Assembly (NCBI GenBank): GCA_017479265.1
Contig: JAFVCK010000068.1
Span: forward strand, 1 to 50,141
Length of the DNA stretch: 50,141 nucleotides
Direction of reading: 5' to 3'
From: Bacteroidales bacterium
GTDB lineage: Bacteria > Bacteroidota > Bacteroidia > Bacteroidales > UBA932
The position numbers were made by a program, and so were the translations under genes. The notes under the pieces were generated by a model, which saw only the letters and a list, made by a program, of their open reading frames with translations, did no database searches and had not been told where the DNA came from. Of this stretch, positions 13,426 through 42,271 are shown piece by piece; the stretch's first letter is position 1, and each line of letters begins with the position of its first letter.

Positions 13426-13457
13426 CAAAGTTCCAAAAAATATTCTATATTTGCAAA
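13426..13457 (-). promoter_or_regulatory. Possible trxB promoter
   Basis: On the minus strand TTTG (13454-13457) is followed after 20 bases by GAACTTTG (13426-13433), which matches TAnnTTTG except for the first base. The pair overlaps the opposing box for the fur-like gene. Confidence 0.4.
13446..13453 (+). promoter_or_regulatory. -7 box for the fur-like gene
   Basis: TATATTTG on the plus strand, 20 bases before the ATG, matches TAnnTTTG exactly. No clear TTTG lies 19-21 bases upstream. It overlaps the proposed trxB promoter, so a regulator bound here could affect both directions. Confidence 0.45.
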
Positions 13458-13473
13458 GATATTGGCCTGAACA

Positions 13474-13935
13474 ATGATTCAAAAGTCCGCTTCACCTCCT
13501 CCTGATGCCATGGAATTCAGGAATTTGCTGAGAAGGCACTCCCTTAAAGTGACTCCCCAGAGGGTCGCCGTACATCAGGCCATGCTGAAGATAGGCCATG
13601 GCAGCGCCGAGCAGGTATGCGAGGAAATCGCCGCTGCAGGCAGGGTGAAAGTAACGACCGCCACCGTTTACAACATACTCTCCCAGATGGCACTGCTGGG
13701 CATATATTCCCACCGTCTCAGCATAGGAAACAAGATGGTGTTCGATGTCACCACCGGCACGCATCTGCACCTTTATGACACATATTCCGGCACTTACAAG
13801 GACATAGAGGATGCCTATCTCACCTCCCTTGTGCTCGCCCGCCTGGGCAGAAGGAAATTCAGGGGCTACAGGGTGGACGGGATAGACATCTCCATACTCT
13901 GCCACCCCAGCAACATAAAGAAAAAACGCAAATGA
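13474..13935 (+). CDS. Fur-family regulator without CxxC zinc motifs
   Basis: A 153-residue protein with the Fur winged-helix domain (about residues 24-90: LKVTPQRVAVHQAML, then TATVYNILSQMALLGI, the recognition-helix region). In Fur, PerR and Zur a His-rich strand HHHLxCxxC follows. Here it is THLHLYDTYSGTYKDIED, with two histidines but no CxxC, and no second CxxC near the C-terminus; the only cysteines are C49 and C143. The tail is basic. It is therefore an unusual Fur relative whose metal sensing may be altered or limited to a non-cysteine site. It overlaps the next gene by four bases (ATGA), so the two are made together. Confidence 0.8.
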   Translation: MIQKSASPPPDAMEFRNLLRRHSLKVTPQRVAVHQAMLKIGHGSAEQVCEEIAAAGRVKVTTATVYNILSQMALLGIYSHRLSIGNKMVFDVTTGTHLHLYDTYSGTYKDIEDAYLTSLVLARLGRRKFRGYRVDGIDISILCHPSNIKKKRK

Positions 13936-18348: not shown

Positions 18349-18379
18349 CAAATTTACGCAAAAATTCCAAGCCAGCAAA
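18349..18379 (-). promoter_or_regulatory. tRNA-Val promoter
   Basis: On the minus strand TTTG (18376-18379), 19 bases, then TAAATTTG (18349-18356): a complete match to the Bacteroidetes housekeeping promoter. The expected start point is only a few bases before the mature tRNA 5' end. Confidence 0.75.
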
Positions 18380-21400: not shown

Positions 21401-23772
21401 CCGCCAAGAAGAGGCTCCACGGCGGCATTCTTGTCCTTCTGCAACTCTTTCCAGGAGTTCTCGTCGTATATCTTATAGGAAACCGTGCCGGGGACCACGT
21501 TGCCGCTCGCATCGCGCACTTCCATCTTGAACGAAACGGTGTCACCGGAGGCCAGGACATGGCCCTCGGTATATTCAGGATACCTGCGTCCGACGGGCCT
21601 GGAGGGATAAACTATGGACTCTTCGCCTTTGAGAACGAACGAGCCGCCGGCCTCGCTGAGGCACTGCACACCTACCTTTATGGAATTGCTTATATAGAGC
21701 CAGTGCCTGAACTCCAGGGTCTCGCCCGTGGCATCGGCGACTATAGCCTCAATCTCGAAGGCTCCGCTGTAAGATGCAGGGAACCAAACGGCGAAAGTAC
21801 CGTCCCCTTCGGGCTTGGTCACAGTCTCATAAACAACTTCGTCATAGCGTTTTACCTTGAGATTTATCTCCGCCTCCCCAAGGCTGTGGCCGGAGTATGT
21901 GCTGACCTTTCCGGACACCTTGGCCCTCTCGCCGGGGAGATACAGCCTGTCCTGGGAATCGAACTCAAGGGAGAATGAAGGAAGCACGAACTCGTCCACC
22001 CTGAAATAATCGGAGGCCACCTGGCGCGAGCCATTGTAAACTGCCAGATGGAAATATCCGTTCCTCTGTCCCACGGGCAGGGTAAACTCCCCAGCCGCCG
22101 AGCCGAAGTCTCCCGTATGCAGTTTCTTGCGCTCAACCTCCTTGGATTCGGCATTGACAAGGACCACCTCTATGTCGGTATCCGCAAGAACGGCCATGTC
22201 GTCAAGGAAATTGCCCTTGAACAGCACCACCTTGAACTTCAGCACATCGCCGGGATTGTATGCTCCCCTGTCCTTGAAAATGCGTCCTTCCTCCCTGGTC
22301 CTGTTCCTGTACATGTTGTAGGAACCCTCCCAGGGGCGGCTGACGGCAATCTCCTCGCTTCTGCGCATCTTTCCGTTTTCATCCCTGAGCTGCACATATA
22401 TGGTCTTGTAGATTTCTTCATCCTTGTCTATGCGGGAGGCTATCTTCTCGGGTACGGGAGTAAAGCCGTCAAATGCCATGCTCGAAGAAAGCACTTTCTT
22501 CTCCCCTGCGGTCAGCGCGAGAGTAGCCTTTTCGACGGGCTTTCCGCTGTCGTACCATGCGGCATACACCTTGTGCCCGTCATAGTCGCAGCGGTGCGCC
22601 AGGGAAATGGTGTAATGCCTGTAGGCAGTCGTGGAAGAGTATTTTCCGGAAACGGCCTCCAGTATATAGGCTCCGTCGTCCACATCGGGCAGTTCAATCT
22701 CCTCAAAATCCTGCACATAGAAGCTGCCTGTGCTGTTCTTGACCTTCCAAGTCTTTATCTTTGAGCCTTTTACGTCATTTTCAAAAGAATACATCGTGAC
22801 AGTGGCCTTGCCAAGGTTGCGGAAAGCCACGCGGGCTCCCTTGCCTCCTGCCGTAATGTTTATGGAGGACGATTCGAGCGTCCTTATCAAAGAAGCGGGA
22901 TAGGTGCAGGGCTTGGCTATGGCAGCCTCGTCCCCCTTCAGCGCGGCACGGTCCGACTCGTATGCGCGGGCCTTTTCGCGAATGGCCTTGTACCGGTCGG
23001 AAGTTGAGCCGGAATTCTTCTCAAGGTCCCTGAATTCTATTTCCAGCACCCTGGAACGGGGATAGAAGGAAACGGCGCGGCCGCGGGTGGAGAGTTCTTC
23101 CATAATGACCTTCTTGCTCACATCGTCGTACCTCTTGTCCGCCACCATGTAGTCAAGATAATCCCCAAGGGGATACTGGCAGGAAAGATATTCCTTCATC
23201 CGGGCATAAACCTCGTCCTTTTCCGGTTTCAGAGGGTCTATCTGACGGCTGCTGAAAAGGTCCCACAACACGAACTCATAGTCGTCGGCGAGATACTTCT
23301 TCAGTTCGCCTCCCATATACGAAACGCTGCCCCAAAGGGAGGAATTGTGCTTCCCTTTGAAGCGGTCCGCGTTATCGTTCAGATACTTGAAAAGGCTGTC
23401 GGAGGAATGGTACCCGTAGTTGCGCATCCACTTGTAAGTAACTATGGGACAGTCGAATTCCTGCACGAGAGCCTTGAACTCCGCCAGTGCCGTATCCCTC
23501 TGCTTCCAGTCCCTGCGCTGCACAGCTTCGACATACAGCACGGAAGACTCGTAGAAATCCCAGGCCGCTCCCCTTTCCATGGCCTTGCCGCGGATATCCT
23601 TCAGTATCTCCATGCATGTGAGCGGCTTGTCAGACTTGTATGCGCTCTGGTACTCTTCCCATCGGGATTGCAGGGAAGCATCTTTTCCGTCTTTTATTTC
23701 CTGGTTCTGGTTCATAGGGTCAAAGTTTGTGGTCAGCCCCGCTATCAGGGACAGAAGCATCAACAGTTTCAT
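18412..23772 (-). CDS. Alpha-2-macroglobulin-like giant envelope protein, thioester-less
   Basis: A 1786-residue protein of the bacterial alpha-2-macroglobulin superfamily (YfaS/MG2 type). It starts with a short hydrophobic signal (MKLLMLLSLIAGL) and a helical N-terminal third. A series of macroglobulin beta-domains follows, including RIFKDRGAYNPGDVLKFKV (MG2-like) and GQVSFEFETSEKLSTYYIYAYAHDKGM, which marks the A2M core. The last part is an alpha/alpha toroid with NADGGFGWFEGMKSSRM and CEQ-free flanks. The CxEQ thioester of trap-type family members is absent: the matching place reads DVLSLSEAWYVRML. Family members are thought to protect the envelope from proteases. The ATG at 23772 lies inside folC (53-base overlap); a TTG two codons earlier is also in frame. 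Co-transcribed with folC. Confidence 0.88.
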   Translation of the reverse strand: MKLLMLLSLIAGLTTNFDPMNQNQEIKDGKDASLQSRWEEYQSAYKSDKPLTCMEILKDIRGKAMERGAAWDFYESSVLYVEAVQRRDWKQRDTALAEFKALVQEFDCPIVTYKWMRNYGYHSSDSLFKYLNDNADRFKGKHNSSLWGSVSYMGGELKKYLADDYEFVLWDLFSSRQIDPLKPEKDEVYARMKEYLSCQYPLGDYLDYMVADKRYDDVSKKVIMEELSTRGRAVSFYPRSRVLEIEFRDLEKNSGSTSDRYKAIREKARAYESDRAALKGDEAAIAKPCTYPASLIRTLESSSINITAGGKGARVAFRNLGKATVTMYSFENDVKGSKIKTWKVKNSTGSFYVQDFEEIELPDVDDGAYILEAVSGKYSSTTAYRHYTISLAHRCDYDGHKVYAAWYDSGKPVEKATLALTAGEKKVLSSSMAFDGFTPVPEKIASRIDKDEEIYKTIYVQLRDENGKMRRSEEIAVSRPWEGSYNMYRNRTREEGRIFKDRGAYNPGDVLKFKVVLFKGNFLDDMAVLADTDIEVVLVNAESKEVERKKLHTGDFGSAAGEFTLPVGQRNGYFHLAVYNGSRQVASDYFRVDEFVLPSFSLEFDSQDRLYLPGERAKVSGKVSTYSGHSLGEAEINLKVKRYDEVVYETVTKPEGDGTFAVWFPASYSGAFEIEAIVADATGETLEFRHWLYISNSIKVGVQCLSEAGGSFVLKGEESIVYPSRPVGRRYPEYTEGHVLASGDTVSFKMEVRDASGNVVPGTVSYKIYDENSWKELQKDKNAAVEPLLGGEVQSGNTVDISLSALPSGLYYMRSFSEVEGKDIRSEYVSKILRVRNGILDAPVRRVFIEGDETVGPGGEIKVDFGCADGPLWAVVCLYGQKKDLLESRMVSLDGVRGETSSMTRASFEYKDSYPDAVRMVIFWFKYGHSISYDKEFHRRNTKLELPLSISSFTDKALPSTKYSVTLSSEPGTELLASVFDKSLDAISPNVWNLVRLNGVTADNIYTSDACGIITGRNAEDGTELLLKDDSDRDMVLYKSAAKGGKVLAAPMLMRENSAETMALADASASEESVGGVASDAEIAVADNVTVRENFETALAFEPMLRTGDNGQVSFEFETSEKLSTYYIYAYAHDKGMRNAFTSEEIVVSVPVKVSMLLPGYLYEGDELRPGVTVSNNSSEDVSGKLYLYVYQQDTPGLDASLKPVSVRYVPLSVPAGGSAAADFVMSARQKGYAGFKAVFVTEGFSDAMYESVPVNEALQSLTETHSAVLRAGMDEAKLIKQLRSRFKNVSGAKAGYSEISVLDMVRDAIPAKKMPAGKDVLSLSEAWYVRMLARRLDGSGADPSELLPKILACRNADGGFGWFEGMKSSRMITAVMLERMAKLAARGFDVPDMSSTVKYLDNTQFGEELPYWCGWVSDAQYMYVRSMYCDVPFDVKGDKERMKEFKEYAVGYLVPSEKDGRGLQGQILAKARRLKTLHVLSFAEGGVDLAEKWGIRRGTLEKLRSSMLADIESLSEYAVEHRDGGWYYPNAVMPWRGLMESEAYAHSTLCDLMSAVGQKKIADGIRLWLMLQKETQKWEDDPAYLDAITSIMDGDSDLLSTKVLVLKADYTAPFSKVKAAGNGFTIERRFFREVTVEEKYNDRTEEKNRQVSRLEEITPGMKVRRGEKIIARYVIWNQENRSFVRLNAFREATLRPVDQLSGHYGWWRTPLWVGRYSFSPQGYRDVKNDRTEYWFDSYPEENTTITEEFFVTQNGVFTAPVVEIESLYAPHYRANAGFTKPLATE

Positions 23773-25021
23773 ATCCAAAGTATTTTAACGCATCGGCCAC
23801 TGCAAAAGTGCTGCCACTGATATAAATCAAATCATCTTTTCCGGCAAGGGACAGGGCCCGCTCCACGCCGGAGGCCGTGTCGGGGTATGCCTCCAGTCCT
23901 TCGGAAGAGCCCCTGAAGGCGGCAACGGCATTCAATATGTCCTCCGATGGAAGGGCCCTGGGGGTGGAAGGCGTGACGAACAGATACTTCGCCCGCCGGG
24001 GCATCAAGGGCATTATGGAGTCCAGGTCCTTGTCGGCCATTACTGCATAGACTATTATGGGAATGCGGCCTGCGGCTTCATTTTCCAGCTGGGCGAAATT
24101 GCGGCTCAGTGCATGGGCGTTGTGGCCTATGTCGCAGATGATGCGGGGATGCTCCCCGAGCATTTCCCAGCGGCCGTGAAGACCCGTGCGCGAGGCGGCA
24201 TTCTCCAGGGCTGAGCAATCGGGCTCCAGGCCCAGCACCCAAAGGGCGGTCAGGACAGTGCGGAGATTGGCCTCCTGGTACTCTCCCCTAAGGTCCATGC
24301 GGCTGAGTATCAGGTCCTTGTCCTCCCATCCCGGAGGATTGCAATCCTCGGCGAAATACAAGGGTCCTTTTGCCACGGACCTGAAAACAGGCTCGGTAAC
24401 GGGATTCTTCTCCCCTACTAGGGCAGGCACTCCTTCCTTGAAGATGCCGGCCTTTTCGCCTGCTATAGCCTCCAGCGTATCGCCAAGATACGCAGTATGG
24501 TCAAGCCCTATGGAGGTCACTATAGAAAGCCTCGGCATTATGACATTGGTGCTGTCCAGACGGCCTCCGAGGCCTACTTCCACCACAGCAATGTCGCAGC
24601 CGCAGGAGGCGAAGAACTCGAAGGCCATGCCGGTGGTTATCTCGAAGAAAGAGAGCGAGAGCCTCTCGAAATCCGGCTTCCATTTCTGCAGGAAATCATA
24701 GACCCATTCCTTGGAAGGAATCTTCCCGTCCACCTTCATCCTCTCTCGGAAATCAAGCAGGTGAGGAGAGGTGTAAAGTCCTGTCCTGTAGCCTTTTGCC
24801 ATAAGGGAAGAGGCCAGCAGGCTGCTCACGGAACCCTTGCCGTTGGTGCCGGCCACATGTATGCTTTCAAACCTGCGCTCCGGATGGCCCAGAAGGGTGC
24901 AGAACTGCTCCATACGCTCCAATCCCGGCTTGTATGCGTCCCCGAAAGGGACGTTCTGGACCGAAGGAAACCTGCGGAACAAGGCTTCAACTTCGGAATT
25001 GTATTTATCGATAACCACCAT
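23720..25021 (-). CDS. folC: Folylpolyglutamate synthase / dihydrofolate synthase
   Basis: Adds glutamate to dihydropteroate and folates. The 433-residue Mur-ligase-type ATPase shows the P-loop GTNGKGS (58-64), the TSPHLLDFRERM segment, the omega-loop region with the DSTN motif (GGRLDSTN), and HGRWEML before the C-terminal domain. The C-terminal tail (from about residue 415) runs in another frame through the start of the macroglobulin gene. First gene of a two-gene unit; its start is 68 bases from the divergent PurL-like gene. Confidence 0.95.
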   Translation of the reverse strand: MVVIDKYNSEVEALFRRFPSVQNVPFGDAYKPGLERMEQFCTLLGHPERRFESIHVAGTNGKGSVSSLLASSLMAKGYRTGLYTSPHLLDFRERMKVDGKIPSKEWVYDFLQKWKPDFERLSLSFFEITTGMAFEFFASCGCDIAVVEVGLGGRLDSTNVIMPRLSIVTSIGLDHTAYLGDTLEAIAGEKAGIFKEGVPALVGEKNPVTEPVFRSVAKGPLYFAEDCNPPGWEDKDLILSRMDLRGEYQEANLRTVLTALWVLGLEPDCSALENAASRTGLHGRWEMLGEHPRIICDIGHNAHALSRNFAQLENEAAGRIPIIVYAVMADKDLDSIMPLMPRRAKYLFVTPSTPRALPSEDILNAVAAFRGSSEGLEAYPDTASGVERALSLAGKDDLIYISGSTFAVADALKYFGYETVDASVPDSGADHKL

Positions 25022-25026
25022 AAAAT

Positions 25027-25057
25027 TTTGAACTCACCCCAAAAATACGTATTTTTG
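25027..25057 (+). promoter_or_regulatory. Promoter of the PurL-like gene, phoH and FAD lipoprotein
   Basis: TTTG (25027-25030), 19 bases, TATTTTTG (25050-25057): an exact TTTG-N19-TAnnTTTG promoter on the plus strand, about 30 bases before the start codon. The -33 box lies only about six bases from the start of folC. Confidence 0.7.
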
Positions 25058-25088: not shown

Positions 25089-26195
25089 ATGAAAGATTAT
25101 CTTAAATCTCCCTACATCATCGACGGTATCCGCATGGATGCCACCCCGATGGAGATGATTCATTCTGCCGGAGGAGCCGACTCCGGGCAAGACGGCGCAT
25201 CCTACGAGCCCATAGTGGACGAGACCCTGGACGCGAGCGTATCCCCGGGCACTTTCAGCGCTGAGAAAATCGCTGATTATCTGGACCTTATGAAGGATGT
25301 CCAAAGACGTTTGCCTCTGGCCCACTGCGGGTCCTACAGCAAGGCCTGCATAGCCAGGGCCCTGTGCGATACCCTCTGGCTATCAGGCAGTTTCTCCTTC
25401 GAGGACCTGGCGCTGAGCCTCGGCTGGAAATGGGACATGTCAGGAGTAGGCGGACCTTCCTCGTTCTACGATTCCGTGGAAGCCTCCTGCGACTATCTGG
25501 ACAGCCTGGGCCTCAAGCTAAAGGAATGCGGCTTTGCCGAGGCGCGGACCTCCAGTTTCTGGGCAAAGGCGTCGCTTGACAAGTCCCAGATAGAGGAAGA
25601 GGAAGAGACCGCGGACTTCTCCGTCCGCAAGGGCATGCCCCGGCTTGGCCGCAAACGCCGCGTCGGAGAGCGAAGCGTCGGGAACAGGCAGGACTGGATA
25701 ATATTCGTGCCCTTCGATACCTGCGCCTTCCGCCTCGGAGGTTCGCTGCTCGGGCAGGTGGCCGGGGAAGCCGGAGGCTCGGCTCCGCAAATACTTGACC
25801 CCGACTACTTTATAGATTGTTTCGAGGTGGTGAGGGAGTTGGTCGAGGACGGCATAGTCACAGCCGGGGTCACGGTAGGAGACGGAGGCATTTTGAAGGC
25901 CCTGTCCGCCATGATGGAAGACCGCGGCATGGATGTGGACCTCGGAGGAATGAGCAGGTCTTACGGCGAGAAGGACCTGGTGCGCCTGCTGTTTGCCGAA
26001 GTGCCAGGGGTCATCATAGAAATCAAGGACTCCGATTACGATTACATAGATGCGGAATTCCTCCTTCAGGACGTTGCCTACTACCCTCTCGGTCATCCGG
26101 GAGAAGGCGGCCTGAGGGTCCACTGCAGCGACTCTTCGGAAATCACAGGCATACTCCAGTCCCTGCTGGACGATGCCACGGAAGGAGAAGACTGA
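25089..26195 (+). CDS. Degenerate PurL C-half protein (AIRS-like pseudoenzyme)
   Basis: 368 residues from the ATG at 25089 (a TTG at 25086 is also in frame). Residues 78-145 resemble the second AIRS-N domain of FGAM synthase (PurL): GSYSKACIARALCDTLW, then LSLGWKW and SFYDSVEASCDYLDSLGL match the PurL pattern of LSANWMW...LYEAV..CSDFA..LG. Residues 205-335 resemble its following AIRS-C domain: FRLGGSLLGQV, DYFIDCFEVVRELVEDG, VGDGGIL, and GEKDLVRLLFAEVPGVII. The IPTGKDSLSM loop is missing after LGL, and the GHDxxxGG motif reads GVTVGDGG. The join is a charged linker (160-200). The first half of PurL and its glutaminase domain are absent. So it is probably not a working synthase. It is followed after 22 bases by phoH. 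The homology is my reading of motifs and needs a profile search. Confidence 0.6.
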   Translation: MKDYLKSPYIIDGIRMDATPMEMIHSAGGADSGQDGASYEPIVDETLDASVSPGTFSAEKIADYLDLMKDVQRRLPLAHCGSYSKACIARALCDTLWLSGSFSFEDLALSLGWKWDMSGVGGPSSFYDSVEASCDYLDSLGLKLKECGFAEARTSSFWAKASLDKSQIEEEEETADFSVRKGMPRLGRKRRVGERSVGNRQDWIIFVPFDTCAFRLGGSLLGQVAGEAGGSAPQILDPDYFIDCFEVVRELVEDGIVTAGVTVGDGGILKALSAMMEDRGMDVDLGGMSRSYGEKDLVRLLFAEVPGVIIEIKDSDYDYIDAEFLLQDVAYYPLGHPGEGGLRVHCSDSSEITGILQSLLDDATEGED

Positions 26196-26217: not shown

Positions 26218-27585
26218 ATGAGTTACGCAAACGCCAAGGACAAGAAGAAAGGCGGCAAAGCAAAAATCTTCGTGCTGGACACCAACATCATCCTGCACGA
26301 TTTCAAGAGCATACGCAATTTCCAGGACAACGACGTGGTCATTCCCATCGCCGTCCTCGAGGAACTGGACAAATTCAAGAAAGGCAACGATGCCCTAAGT
26401 TTCAACGCCAGAGGCTTCATGCGCGAAATAGACCTCCTCAGCGAAGGCCGAATGTTCGGCAAGACGGGAGTGCCCATAGGAAAGGGCCGCGGCAATATCA
26501 AGATAGAGCCCAACCACCCCTTCCCGGAGAATCTGGCGGCACTGTTCCTGGACGACACCCAGGACCACCGCATACTGGCCACGGCAATTTGGGTGAGGGA
26601 CAACAATCCCGGCCGCTTTACCGCTCTGGTAACCAAGGACATAAACCTCAGGATGAAGGCCAAGGCGGCCGGAATGGAAGCCCAGGACTACCTGACAGAC
26701 AGGGTGGAGGAAGAGAAGATAGCGAACAGCCAGAAGGAACTCCAGGAGATTGACGACGCTCCCGCCGAGGTGCTCCAGAAACTCGCCTACGGAGCCGATA
26801 CTGCCGTGGACTGGAAGCAGCTTGTCAAGGAGAAGCCGGCCCCCAATACCCTCTTCAAGTTCGGCTGGAGCAACGAGACCGTGACCGCCAGGTTCGAGCC
26901 TGCCAGCGAGAGGATAATCCTTGTAAATAAAAAGGAAGCATACGGCATACGCCCCCGCAACATAGAGCAGAAATTCGCCTTGGATGCCTGCCTCAACCCC
27001 AAGATTCCCCTTGTGTCTCTCACCGGAGGTGCTGGAACGGGCAAGACCCTGATAGCCCTGGCATCGGCCCTGGAGCAGGAGCACGAATATGACCAGATTA
27101 TTCTCTCGCGTCCGGCCATCACCCTCGGCAACCAGGACATAGGCTTCCTGCCCGGCGACCAGAAAAGCAAGATGGCCCCTTATCTTCAGCCTCTGATGGA
27201 CAACCTGGCCGTTATCAAGTCGCAGTTCCGTCCTTCGAGCAAGGAATCTCTCAGGATAGATGCCCTTCTGAACAGCGAAAAGTTGCTGATTACCCCTCTG
27301 GCGTATATCAGGGGCCGTTCCCTGGGGAAGGTGTTCTTCATCGTGGACGAGGCGCAGAACCTCACTCCGCACGAAATCAAGACCATAATCACAAGGGCCG
27401 GAGAAGGCACCAAGATGGTGTTTACCGGAGACATATTCCAGATTGACCAGCCCTTCCTCGACCAGTGGTCCAACGGACTTACCCACCTGGGCGAAAAAAT
27501 GGCGGGGCAGGCCCTGTTCCAGCATGTATTCCTCCGCAAAGGCGAACGAAGCGAAATATCCGAACTCGCCGCAAAATTATTGTAA
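26218..27585 (+). CDS. phoH: PhoH-family protein with N-terminal PIN domain
   Basis: 455 residues with two domains. A PIN nuclease domain (about 15-150) has acidic residues at LDTNIIL (Asp 21), VLEELDKF and LDDTQDHRILATA. A PhoH ATPase (about 245-455) has Walker A GGAGTGKT (270-277), Walker B VFFIVDEAQNLTPHEIKTIITR and the later GTKMVFTGDIFQID. PIN-PhoH proteins (PhoH2 type) unwind and cut RNA in other bacteria; here that is inferred. It follows the PurL-like gene by 22 bases, and its stop codon directly abuts the ATG of the FAD lipoprotein gene. Confidence 0.92.
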   Translation: MSYANAKDKKKGGKAKIFVLDTNIILHDFKSIRNFQDNDVVIPIAVLEELDKFKKGNDALSFNARGFMREIDLLSEGRMFGKTGVPIGKGRGNIKIEPNHPFPENLAALFLDDTQDHRILATAIWVRDNNPGRFTALVTKDINLRMKAKAAGMEAQDYLTDRVEEEKIANSQKELQEIDDAPAEVLQKLAYGADTAVDWKQLVKEKPAPNTLFKFGWSNETVTARFEPASERIILVNKKEAYGIRPRNIEQKFALDACLNPKIPLVSLTGGAGTGKTLIALASALEQEHEYDQIILSRPAITLGNQDIGFLPGDQKSKMAPYLQPLMDNLAVIKSQFRPSSKESLRIDALLNSEKLLITPLAYIRGRSLGKVFFIVDEAQNLTPHEIKTIITRAGEGTKMVFTGDIFQIDQPFLDQWSNGLTHLGEKMAGQALFQHVFLRKGERSEISELAAKLL

Positions 27586-29568
27586 ATGAGAAAGTTATAT
27601 ATACTGCTAGCGGCGATGGTGATTGCCTCTTGTACGCCGGTAAAGGAAATCCCTCAGTGGAATCCGTCGGAGATTCCTTCCGAAGAGCCTTCTGCCGAAC
27701 CGTCCGAAGAGCCGTCTGCGGAGCCCTCGGTGGAGCCTTCCGAGGAGCCGTCAACAGAGCCGTCTGAAGAACCTTCTACAGAGCCGTCCGAGGAGCCTTC
27801 CGAAGAGCCCCAACCCACCGGAACGGGCACCATCCTGGTCATAGGAGGAGGCTCAAGCGGCATGAGCGCAGCCCTGCAGGCCGCAAGGATGGGCATCCCG
27901 ACGACCGTGGTGGAAGAAACCCCCTGGCTTGGCGGCATGCTCACCAGCGCGGGAGTCAGCGCCACAGACGGCAACCACAAGATGAGGCAGGGCATTTTCG
28001 GCGAATTCATTTCAGCCCTCGCATCCCACTACGGAAGCCTGTCGGCCCTCAAGACAGGCTGGGTGAGCAACACCCTGTATGAGCCCCGCGTCGGAGAAAA
28101 GGTTTTCGAAGACTGGGCCGCCGCCGAGAGCAATCTCACGGTAATAAAGGAAGCCGTTTTCGAGAGCATAAGCAAGGATGCAAGCGGCTGGACTGCAAGT
28201 TTTTCTTCTGAAAAAGGGAACTTCACCATCAGCGCCGACAGGGTGATAGACTGCACGGAACTGGGCGACGTGGCCAAGGCCGCCGGAGTAAAGTATCATG
28301 TCGGAATGGACTCCCCTTCCTATACGGGCGAAAGCCAGGCAATCGGGCCCAACGACGTAGTCCAGGACATCACCATGTGCATGACCCTCAAGAACTTCGG
28401 CAAGGATGTCACCATAGCCAAGCCTGAAGGATATGACGAGAGCCTATACTACAACTGCTGCGAGAATCCCCTGAACGTCAATGTCAGCGGCGGAAAGGAC
28501 GCGGTCACGGGACAGACCATCTGGCCTGCCTCCCAGATGCTGAGCTACGGCCTGCTGCCCGGAGGGGAATACATGATAAACTGGCCCATACACGGCAACG
28601 ACTACTATGTCAACCTCATTGACATGTCCCGCGAAGAAAGGGCCGAGGCCATACGCAAGGCGAAACTCCATTCCCTGGGCTTCCTTTACTTCATGCAGAC
28701 AAAACTGGGATACAACTACCTCGGACTCTCCGACAATGAATATCCCTCTGAAGACCGCATGCCCTTCATTCCATATCACAGGGAATCCAGGCGCATAGAG
28801 GGAGAGTATCTGTTCACGGTGACGGAAGCTTCCTCCCCCTTCGATTTCGACGGATTCAGAAGCGGAATAGCCGTTGGCGACTATCCCGTGGACCATCACC
28901 ACTACCAGTATACCCGCTGGATGGACATAAGCATCAACTTCCCGTCCATAGTGCCCTTCACCCTGCCCCTCGGAGTCCTGATTCCCAAGGAAAAGGACGA
29001 CCTCCTGGTCGCCGAGAAGTCCATATCGGTCAGCAACATTGTGAACGGCACCACCCGTTTGCAGCCAATCACCATGGAACTGGGCCAGGCGGCAGGCGCT
29101 CTGGCGGCGCTCAGCATACTCTACGAAAAGGACCTTCGCCATACGGGCGTGCGCAGGGTGCTGAAAGCCTTGCTTGAAAGCGGGGCCCGCCTGCAGCCAT
29201 ACCTTGACCTGGATGCTTCGAACGCTGATTTCCAGGTACTTCAGAGGATAGGCTCGACAGGTATCATGCGCGGCCGAGGCCAGACCGTCGGCTGGTCCAA
29301 CGAAATGAGGTTCAGGAATTCGGACAAGCTGCTCTGGAATGAACTGTATCTGGAAGAATATTACGACATCCCCTACAATTCATCTTCCGCAGCGGTGACC
29401 GGCGACGAACTCATATCCCTGATAGAGAAGATTTGCGGGCACGGCATAGAGAGCAACCTCAAGGGCGTTTCCGCAGTATCGCGCCTGCAGGCGGCCAAAC
29501 TAATAGACAAGGAACTGGACCCCTTCAATTCCTTCGAGATAGGACTGGACGGAAAGGTCATCCGTTAA
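27586..29568 (+). CDS. FAD-dependent oxidoreductase lipoprotein with PSEEP-repeat linker
   Basis: 660 residues. A lipoprotein signal ends in VIASC (Cys 16). A Pro/Ser/Glu repeat stalk (31-75) leads to a dinucleotide fold [29 protein letters not shown] (split here by its glycine motif GGGSSG at 87-92) of the FAD_oxidored (PF12831-like) type. Further marks are [18 protein letters not shown], the [15 protein letters not shown] segment, and the late [16 protein letters not shown]. Family members are common in Bacteroidetes, often secreted, with unknown substrates. The stalk implies it is held away from the membrane, probably at the cell surface. It starts immediately after the phoH stop (TAAATG) and overlaps the RNA methyltransferase gene tail to tail by 11 bases. 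Confidence 0.88.
27676..27810 (+). repeat. In-gene tandem repeat coding PSEEPSxEP units
   Basis: About 135 bases made of 15-base units (Pro-Ser/Thr-Glu-Glu and Pro-Ser-x-Glu alternately), giving a 45-residue acidic Pro-rich stalk. Units differ at the third codon position (CCT/CCG, TCC/TCT/TCG, GAA/GAG), so the repeat is old or under coding selection rather than freshly slipped. Copy number may vary between strains. Confidence 0.85.
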
Positions 29569-34382: not shown

Positions 34383-34414
34383 CAAATATAACAATTTTGG
34401 GCCAATAAAGCAAA
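34383..34414 (-). promoter_or_regulatory. ppdK promoter
   Basis: On the minus strand TTTG (34411-34414), 20 bases, TATATTTG (34383-34390): a full match to the Bacteroidetes promoter. It starts just beyond the dapF stop and gives a leader of about 30 bases. Confidence 0.7.
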
Positions 34415-42239: not shown

Positions 42240-42271
42240 CAAATTTACTTCCAAACCGAGAGAAAAACAAA
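42240..42271 (-). promoter_or_regulatory. Promoter of the lolA-dap operon
   Basis: On the minus strand TTTG (42268-42271), 20 bases, TAAATTTG (42240-42247): full consensus. The leader to the lolA ATG is under 20 bases, so no lysine riboswitch is present. Confidence 0.7.

Follow-up and report, generated by a model that had tools for sequence, protein, structure and literature searches.

The window, a stretch of 50,141 nucleotides that makes up an entire contig of a metagenome-assembled genome (MAG; 2.04 Mb, 89% complete), carries at positions 25089–26195 of the forward strand an open reading frame with an ATG start and a TGA stop that encodes a protein of 368 residues. Its neighbors are those that an earlier note on this DNA had named: folC on the reverse strand (23720–25021), a divergent neighbor that marks a locus common to the full-length purL of related genera, and a co-directional gene for a PIN-PhoH protein (PIN_4 and PhoH domains; 26218–27585, forward strand) 22 nt downstream. 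A promoter-like site, TTTG-N19-TAnnTTTG, which we take to be the Bacteroidetes-type promoter consensus, lies at 25027–25057 on the forward strand, 31 nt ahead of the start codon. Five TTTG/TAnnTTTG sites were observed in the window as compared with 0.12 expected, and a similar site (N17–21) occurs within 200 nt upstream at 22 of 97 family loci as compared with 3 of 1940 shuffles. The four further sites (TTTG-N18-20-TAnnTTTG) are on the reverse strand at 13454–13483, 18349–18379, 34383–34414 and 42240–42271. Positions 27586–29568, after phoH, hold a gene that we named by eye as FAD-oxidoreductase-like, and the same is seen at L042–L044, unlike many loci of the genus, where ppdk occupies this position.

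The short protein is homologous to PurL (FGAM synthase) over the A2 and B2 domains, and the AIRS-N/AIRS-C sequence blocks cited in the earlier note, which had read it as an orphan, dead remnant of the second PurL half, are present. Residues 104–327 align with residues 727–943 of 1290 in the NCBIfam PurL model PRK05297 (E 4.9e-17), the solved PurL 9n9w is matched at E 6.6e-10, and the profile of the short family, whose alignment has 101 rows, matches solved PurLs at E 2.1e-20. The score for the whole protein is 60.7 bits, below the curated PurL cut-off of 783. Pfam scanning at E up to 1 returned only AIRS_C, a weak match of 20.3 bits against a cut-off of 23.1, and no glutaminase.

Aligned to 11 native PurLs, the large form of related Bacteroidales, the short profile resolves into three collinear pieces, and homology stops near residue 925 of about 1,236. 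Piece 1 (25101–25199, forward strand, ends approximate; residues about 5–37) resembles the start of the first AIRS-N domain, including the FxIDG segment (native PurL about 172–204). Piece 2 (25218–25319, forward strand, ends approximate; residues about 44–77) resembles the start of the second half (about 570–603), and piece 3 (25329–26123, forward strand, ends approximate) corresponds to the rest of A2 plus B2 (about 655–925). Piece 3 was found in all 11 native PurLs with domain E values of 9.8e-31 to 1.8e-46. The first two pieces are weak: piece 1, found in 11, exceeds the best of 1100 shuffles (3.7) in 10, although one unrelated protein scored 7.6, and piece 2, found in 10, exceeds the best of 1100 shuffles (3.5) in seven. 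The short profile also weakly matches the repeated first-half domain of native PurLs. The glutaminase is gone, as had been claimed, and so is the greater part of the first half, though not all of it, piece 1 resembling the first AIRS start. The charged linker described as joining the two blocks is present here but not essential, being much shorter in L176–L181, where the short proteins have 335–363 residues, the genomes are of 1.4–2.0 Mb and PIN-PhoH does not adjoin.

The catalytic motifs are gone. In 112 short proteins compared with 11 native ones, the PTGKDSLSM (GKDS) loop is not conserved, so that its absence here, pointed out previously, extends across the family. The former GHDxSxGG metal/nucleotide motif reads GVTVGDGG in the window (25866–25889, forward strand), and its degeneracy is likewise general: the native histidine (H831) is H in none of the 112 short proteins, and the aspartate (D832) is D in one and T in 98. 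Nearby positions have changed as well, native E665 being E in four, N669 being N in two and D in 91, and S834 being S in 13 and G in 81. E665, N669, D832 and S834 are the equivalents of E718, N722, D884 and S886 in Salmonella numbering, which we take to be ADP/Mg ligands of the PurL structural site. Scaffold residues such as W113, W115, G217, S219, G266 and G267 are retained. We regard it as very probable that the short protein is a dead enzyme; the earlier reading of the gene, as a descendant of the second half of PurL that has lost its activity, is supported, the catalytic loop, the GHD motif and the glutaminase all being absent.

In its own genome the short gene stands by itself. No second AIRS_C match, no clostridial-type PurL (TIGR01857), no purM and no purH were found in this 89% complete MAG, and the search for a full-length purL elsewhere, which the earlier note had proposed, came back empty; the genomes are MAGs, in which absences may reflect assembly gaps. 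The term orphan holds for this genome but not for the genus, where the gene is nearly universal at an apparent ancestral purL locus: it is present, usually before PIN-PhoH, in 288 of 300 genus genomes (E 1e-10 or better) and in 117 of the 118 good ones. The sole good genome without a match, G087, also lacks a detectable PIN-PhoH, and the locus may therefore be missing from that assembly. Among 36 other genomes of the same genus 35 match, with best segments 38–54% identical.

Outside the genus, the gene is also carried by genus g41. Across 249 genomes of the family, short frames among the matches listed were confined to g1 and three g41 genomes, and in other genera the frames among the matches listed were of at least 637 residues, some at contig ends. 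Within the order but beyond this family, 16 of 24 genomes match, in frames of 1020–1266 residues. A class-wide search (396 genomes, completeness of at least 90 asked for; 93 matched) brought up no other conspicuous short form standing alone; apart from that of our own genome, the frames listed spanned 1126–1312 residues, with five of 741–755 and two near contig ends (509 residues in G684 and 186 in G928). A relative is encoded by 406 stretches of the named collection, of which 80 were kept, and the titles of such loci include Candidatus Cryptobacteroides faecavium, faecihippi and onthequi. A different arrangement is seen in g33, where purL looks divided close to the point at which its halves meet: frames of 662–717 residues carry the second half (G132, G171, G187, G211, G221 and G262), and G132 has the first half in a separate 584-residue frame on a different contig.

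The short gene is under purifying selection. Among 86 pairs above 80% identity, the 56 with dS between 0.05 and 1.5 gave a median dN/dS of 0.096 and a maximum of 0.155. We conclude that the gene almost certainly encodes a functional protein, and the scaffold or other new role that had been suggested fits both this selection and the conservation.

Comparison of gene order points to an origin in place. Six loci from related genera (L152, L153, L154, L155, L166 and L168) have a full-length purL of 1227–1289 residues between divergent folC and PIN-PhoH, followed by ppdk (on the opposite strand in L154), and the genus locus L159 has the short gene in that very slot. Two loci (L156 and L167) have purL beside folC with no PIN-PhoH after it, and three (L161, L163 and L165) have folC and PIN-PhoH as divergent neighbors with no purL between them. 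In a tree of 17 of the 112 short proteins and 11 native PurLs, the short proteins form one clade (100/100) on a long stem of 1.89 changes per column; the tree singles out no sister to this clade, and PurLs from pur operons, with 39–56 aligned residues, were excluded. Judged from these sequence comparisons, the short gene very likely arose in place from native purL.

The PurL found elsewhere in the genus is of a different type. L158 contains a pur gene cluster with purM, purH and other genes whose pur names we assume, and its PurL matches TIGR01857 at 1724.6 bits, whereas the native PurL of L152 matches PRK05297 at 1417 bits. TIGR01857 is above cut-off in eight of 48 genomes, comprising four from the genus, three from g41 and G158 (g40); the clostridial-type PurL was found in 4/4 PurL-bearing genus genomes tried and in 3/3 g41 genomes. 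From this distribution we infer that the pur operon was acquired by transfer. Derivation of the short gene by duplication of the genus operon PurL was rejected, as the short profile scores at most 17.9 bits in 11 operon PurLs as compared with 108–162 bits in 11 native PurLs. A phage or defense origin was also rejected, the short protein matching neither a PHROGs nor a PADLOC family at E up to 0.01. G158 gave no short-profile match and thus showed neither native PurL nor short gene, while G215, G274 and G337 of g40 have matches in long native-type frames. The finding is larger than first stated: a lineage-wide pseudoenzyme that looks like the product of in-place purL reduction.

Retention of the short gene does not track purine synthesis. 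A long PurL frame (962–1356 residues), purM and purH occur in 37 of 47 good genomes; purM is over cut-off in 35 of them and purH also in 35, with purH in pieces in G023 and G117 and interrupted by a stop in the latter. The other ten (G005, G019, G061, G078, G081, G094, G100, G105, G106 and G113) have no full-length PurL, purM or purH, the purH match in G105 being a 20-bit hit in a 1474-residue frame, and all ten retain the short gene. G100 and G113 also lack PIN-PhoH. It appears that the gene is kept even in species seemingly without purine synthesis, and the earlier suggestion of a purine-linked regulator is weakened because of these genomes. The proposed link to folC has lost ground as well, since folC is not the divergent neighbor in L054, L060, L073, L092 and L096, where the order is ppdk, short gene, phoH, folC on one strand.

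Two conserved acidic segments characterize the short proteins: D237–D254 (DxDYFxDCxExxRExxED; 25797–25850, forward strand) and D314–D328 (26028–26072, forward strand). D243, E246, E250 and D254 are fixed in 112/112 short proteins; in the 11 native PurLs, the same positions are D in two, E in two, E in four and K in eight, respectively. The median pI is 4.41 (111 proteins), and the median net charge of B2 is -16 in the 94 rows with PIN-PhoH, -14 in the 17 without and -11 in native PurL. As native PurL is itself acidic in 10/11 cases, the gain in acidity is moderate.

PIN-PhoH lies downstream of the short gene in 94 of 111 distinct family rows, with a median gap of 12 nt and eight overlapping stop/start pairs in 84 readable loci. 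In the 17 rows where it is not downstream, the acidic core is nearly as conserved. For 11 of these PIN-PhoH was not found genome-wide, many being incomplete MAGs; for L053, L058, L074, L177, L180 and L181 its absence was judged from the flank only. PIN-PhoH was matched (E 1e-60) in 60 of 65 good genomes, and four of the remaining five, G032, G100, G113 and G342, retain the short gene. If the short protein acts by binding, it must have another partner as well, since its gene persists in genomes that lack PIN-PhoH.

The C-terminal EGED tail (26181–26192, forward strand) is shared by 103 of 111 genus members, with synonymously varying codons. It is lost in six of 17 rows without PIN-PhoH as compared with two of 94 with it (p 1.3e-4). 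However, four of those six belong to the hand-picked rows (L172–L181), and when the PIN-PhoH tests were repeated without these the loss was 2/11 versus 2/90 (p 0.058). The tree needs eight PIN-PhoH changes and five tail changes, and on it the association is not significant (median p 1 for five independent pairs taken from starred branches). In g41, PIN-PhoH follows the short gene, yet there is no EGED. A Shine-Dalgarno origin of the tail was rejected: the distance to phoH varies, the codons vary and the tail persists in 11 rows that have no PIN-PhoH downstream. Where PIN-PhoH is missing, divergence of the short protein is modestly higher, with p 4e-4 relative to folC and 1e-7 relative to ppdk for all rows and p 0.009 and 1e-5, respectively, without the hand-picked rows, all uncorrected for kinship. 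PIN-PhoH appears to be the likeliest, though not the sole, partner, the link being weak without the hand-picked rows; that it is a partner at all we hold to be less likely than not.

Several lines of evidence suggest that the short protein is an exapted acidic pseudoenzyme that acts by binding, with PIN-PhoH as the likeliest but not the only partner, a reading to which we assign a probability of about 0.5. In an ancestor of the genus, folC and PIN-PhoH would have flanked native purL. Synthesis may then have passed to a pur operon whose PurL is clostridial in type, and native purL, of about 1,230 codons, would have shrunk at its locus to about 370, less than one third. The N-terminal domain, the bulk of the first half, part of A2 and the glutaminase would have been deleted, and the residues for catalysis and for metal/nucleotide contacts would have gone with them. 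This order and direction of events is the one that we infer. The remnant may have been exapted to bind another macromolecule, probably through D237–D254 and D314–D328. The PIN-PhoH RNase-helicase would be the most probable regular partner, linked above all to the EGED tail, and a second partner would serve where PIN-PhoH is gone. One review mentions a proposal that gives a lead on binding functions for this fold (PMC10912719).

The same pairing could instead mean that the short gene, upstream in one operon with PIN-PhoH, encodes an antitoxin like PhoAT or an inhibitor dedicated to PIN-PhoH. The layout equals that of the bicistronic PhoAT-PhoH2 operon (PMC4826407), and the faster divergence of the short protein where PIN-PhoH is missing would also fit. 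However, the 17 rows without PIN-PhoH downstream keep the gene with its core intact, in the four good genomes above PIN-PhoH was not found at all, and L161, L163 and L165 have PIN-PhoH with no short gene between it and folC; we consider this role unlikely. A more specific version of binding, in which the acidic segments and EGED would form an RNA-like decoy for PIN-PhoH and so regulate RNA turnover, with a second RNA-handling partner accounting for survival of the gene where PIN-PhoH has been lost, strikes us as improbable. If it were true, an enzyme displaced by an acquired equivalent would have been trimmed in place, rather than lost, into a regulator of RNA turnover.

Sensing is a further alternative, raised in the earlier note: the retained half would bind ADP or a purine at the old site and signal purine status. 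In its favor, that half is A2/B2, which, according to one report, houses an ADP site of unknown function with Asp679 at its phosphate (PMC3815217). By alignment, however, the segment with the D679 equivalent lies in a deletion of the short protein. A nucleotide sensor at the old site is unlikely because the ADP/Mg ligands have been lost by deletion or exchanged in most of the 112 proteins, and the ten good genomes without full-length PurL, purM and purH that keep the gene also speak against a signal of purine status; although another pocket might serve for sensing, we hold this explanation, too, to be improbable. That the frame persists only as a leader for translational coupling of PIN-PhoH to the former purL would suit the tight spacing here and in relatives with full-length purL (L152, L154, L155 and L166), but is largely contradicted by purifying selection at the protein level and by retention in good genomes without PIN-PhoH, and is very improbable. 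A decaying pseudogene, despite the large deletions, the long stem branch and a stop inside the match of G100, can be practically dismissed given the median dN/dS of 0.096, the presence of the gene in 117 of the 118 good genomes and the lack of a stop within any match listed in two genus surveys (36 and 300 genomes).

Pseudoenzymes are common, but here hundreds of species allow an ancestral enzyme and its locus to be compared with both the replacement and the trimmed product. A displaced core enzyme seems to have left behind a protein that outlived its source pathway, which makes the gain of new roles by dead enzymes testable and points to a function that almost all members of an uncultured gut genus share. 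Among the matches listed in open-licence literature on PurL, FGARAT, PhoH2 and Cryptobacteroides, titles and abstract starts do not report the protein.

Its closest known relative is the large PurL of Bacteroidales (NF003672/PRK05297, TIGR01735), with which it shares A2/B2 homology and, in related genera, the locus; the short protein has about 370 residues as compared with about 1,230, and is without the loop, the GHD motif, most of the first half and the glutaminase. The clostridial-type PurL of the genus (TIGR01857) belongs by family to the same step as the ancestor of the short gene but to another PurL clade. The vFGARATs of gammaherpesviruses are much longer and have a glutaminase-like domain. 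The short protein scores 36.6 bits against TIGR01739, below the cut-off of 716.1. These viral tegument proteins, such as ORF75c, are also PurL relatives in other roles (PMC2464709). PhoAT-PhoH2 is described as a type II toxin-antitoxin operon in which the PhoAT gene lies upstream of and co-directional with PhoH2 (PMC4826407). The short gene has the same position relative to PIN-PhoH in 94/111 rows, whereas its pairing with PIN-PhoH is not obligate, 17/111 rows being without it.
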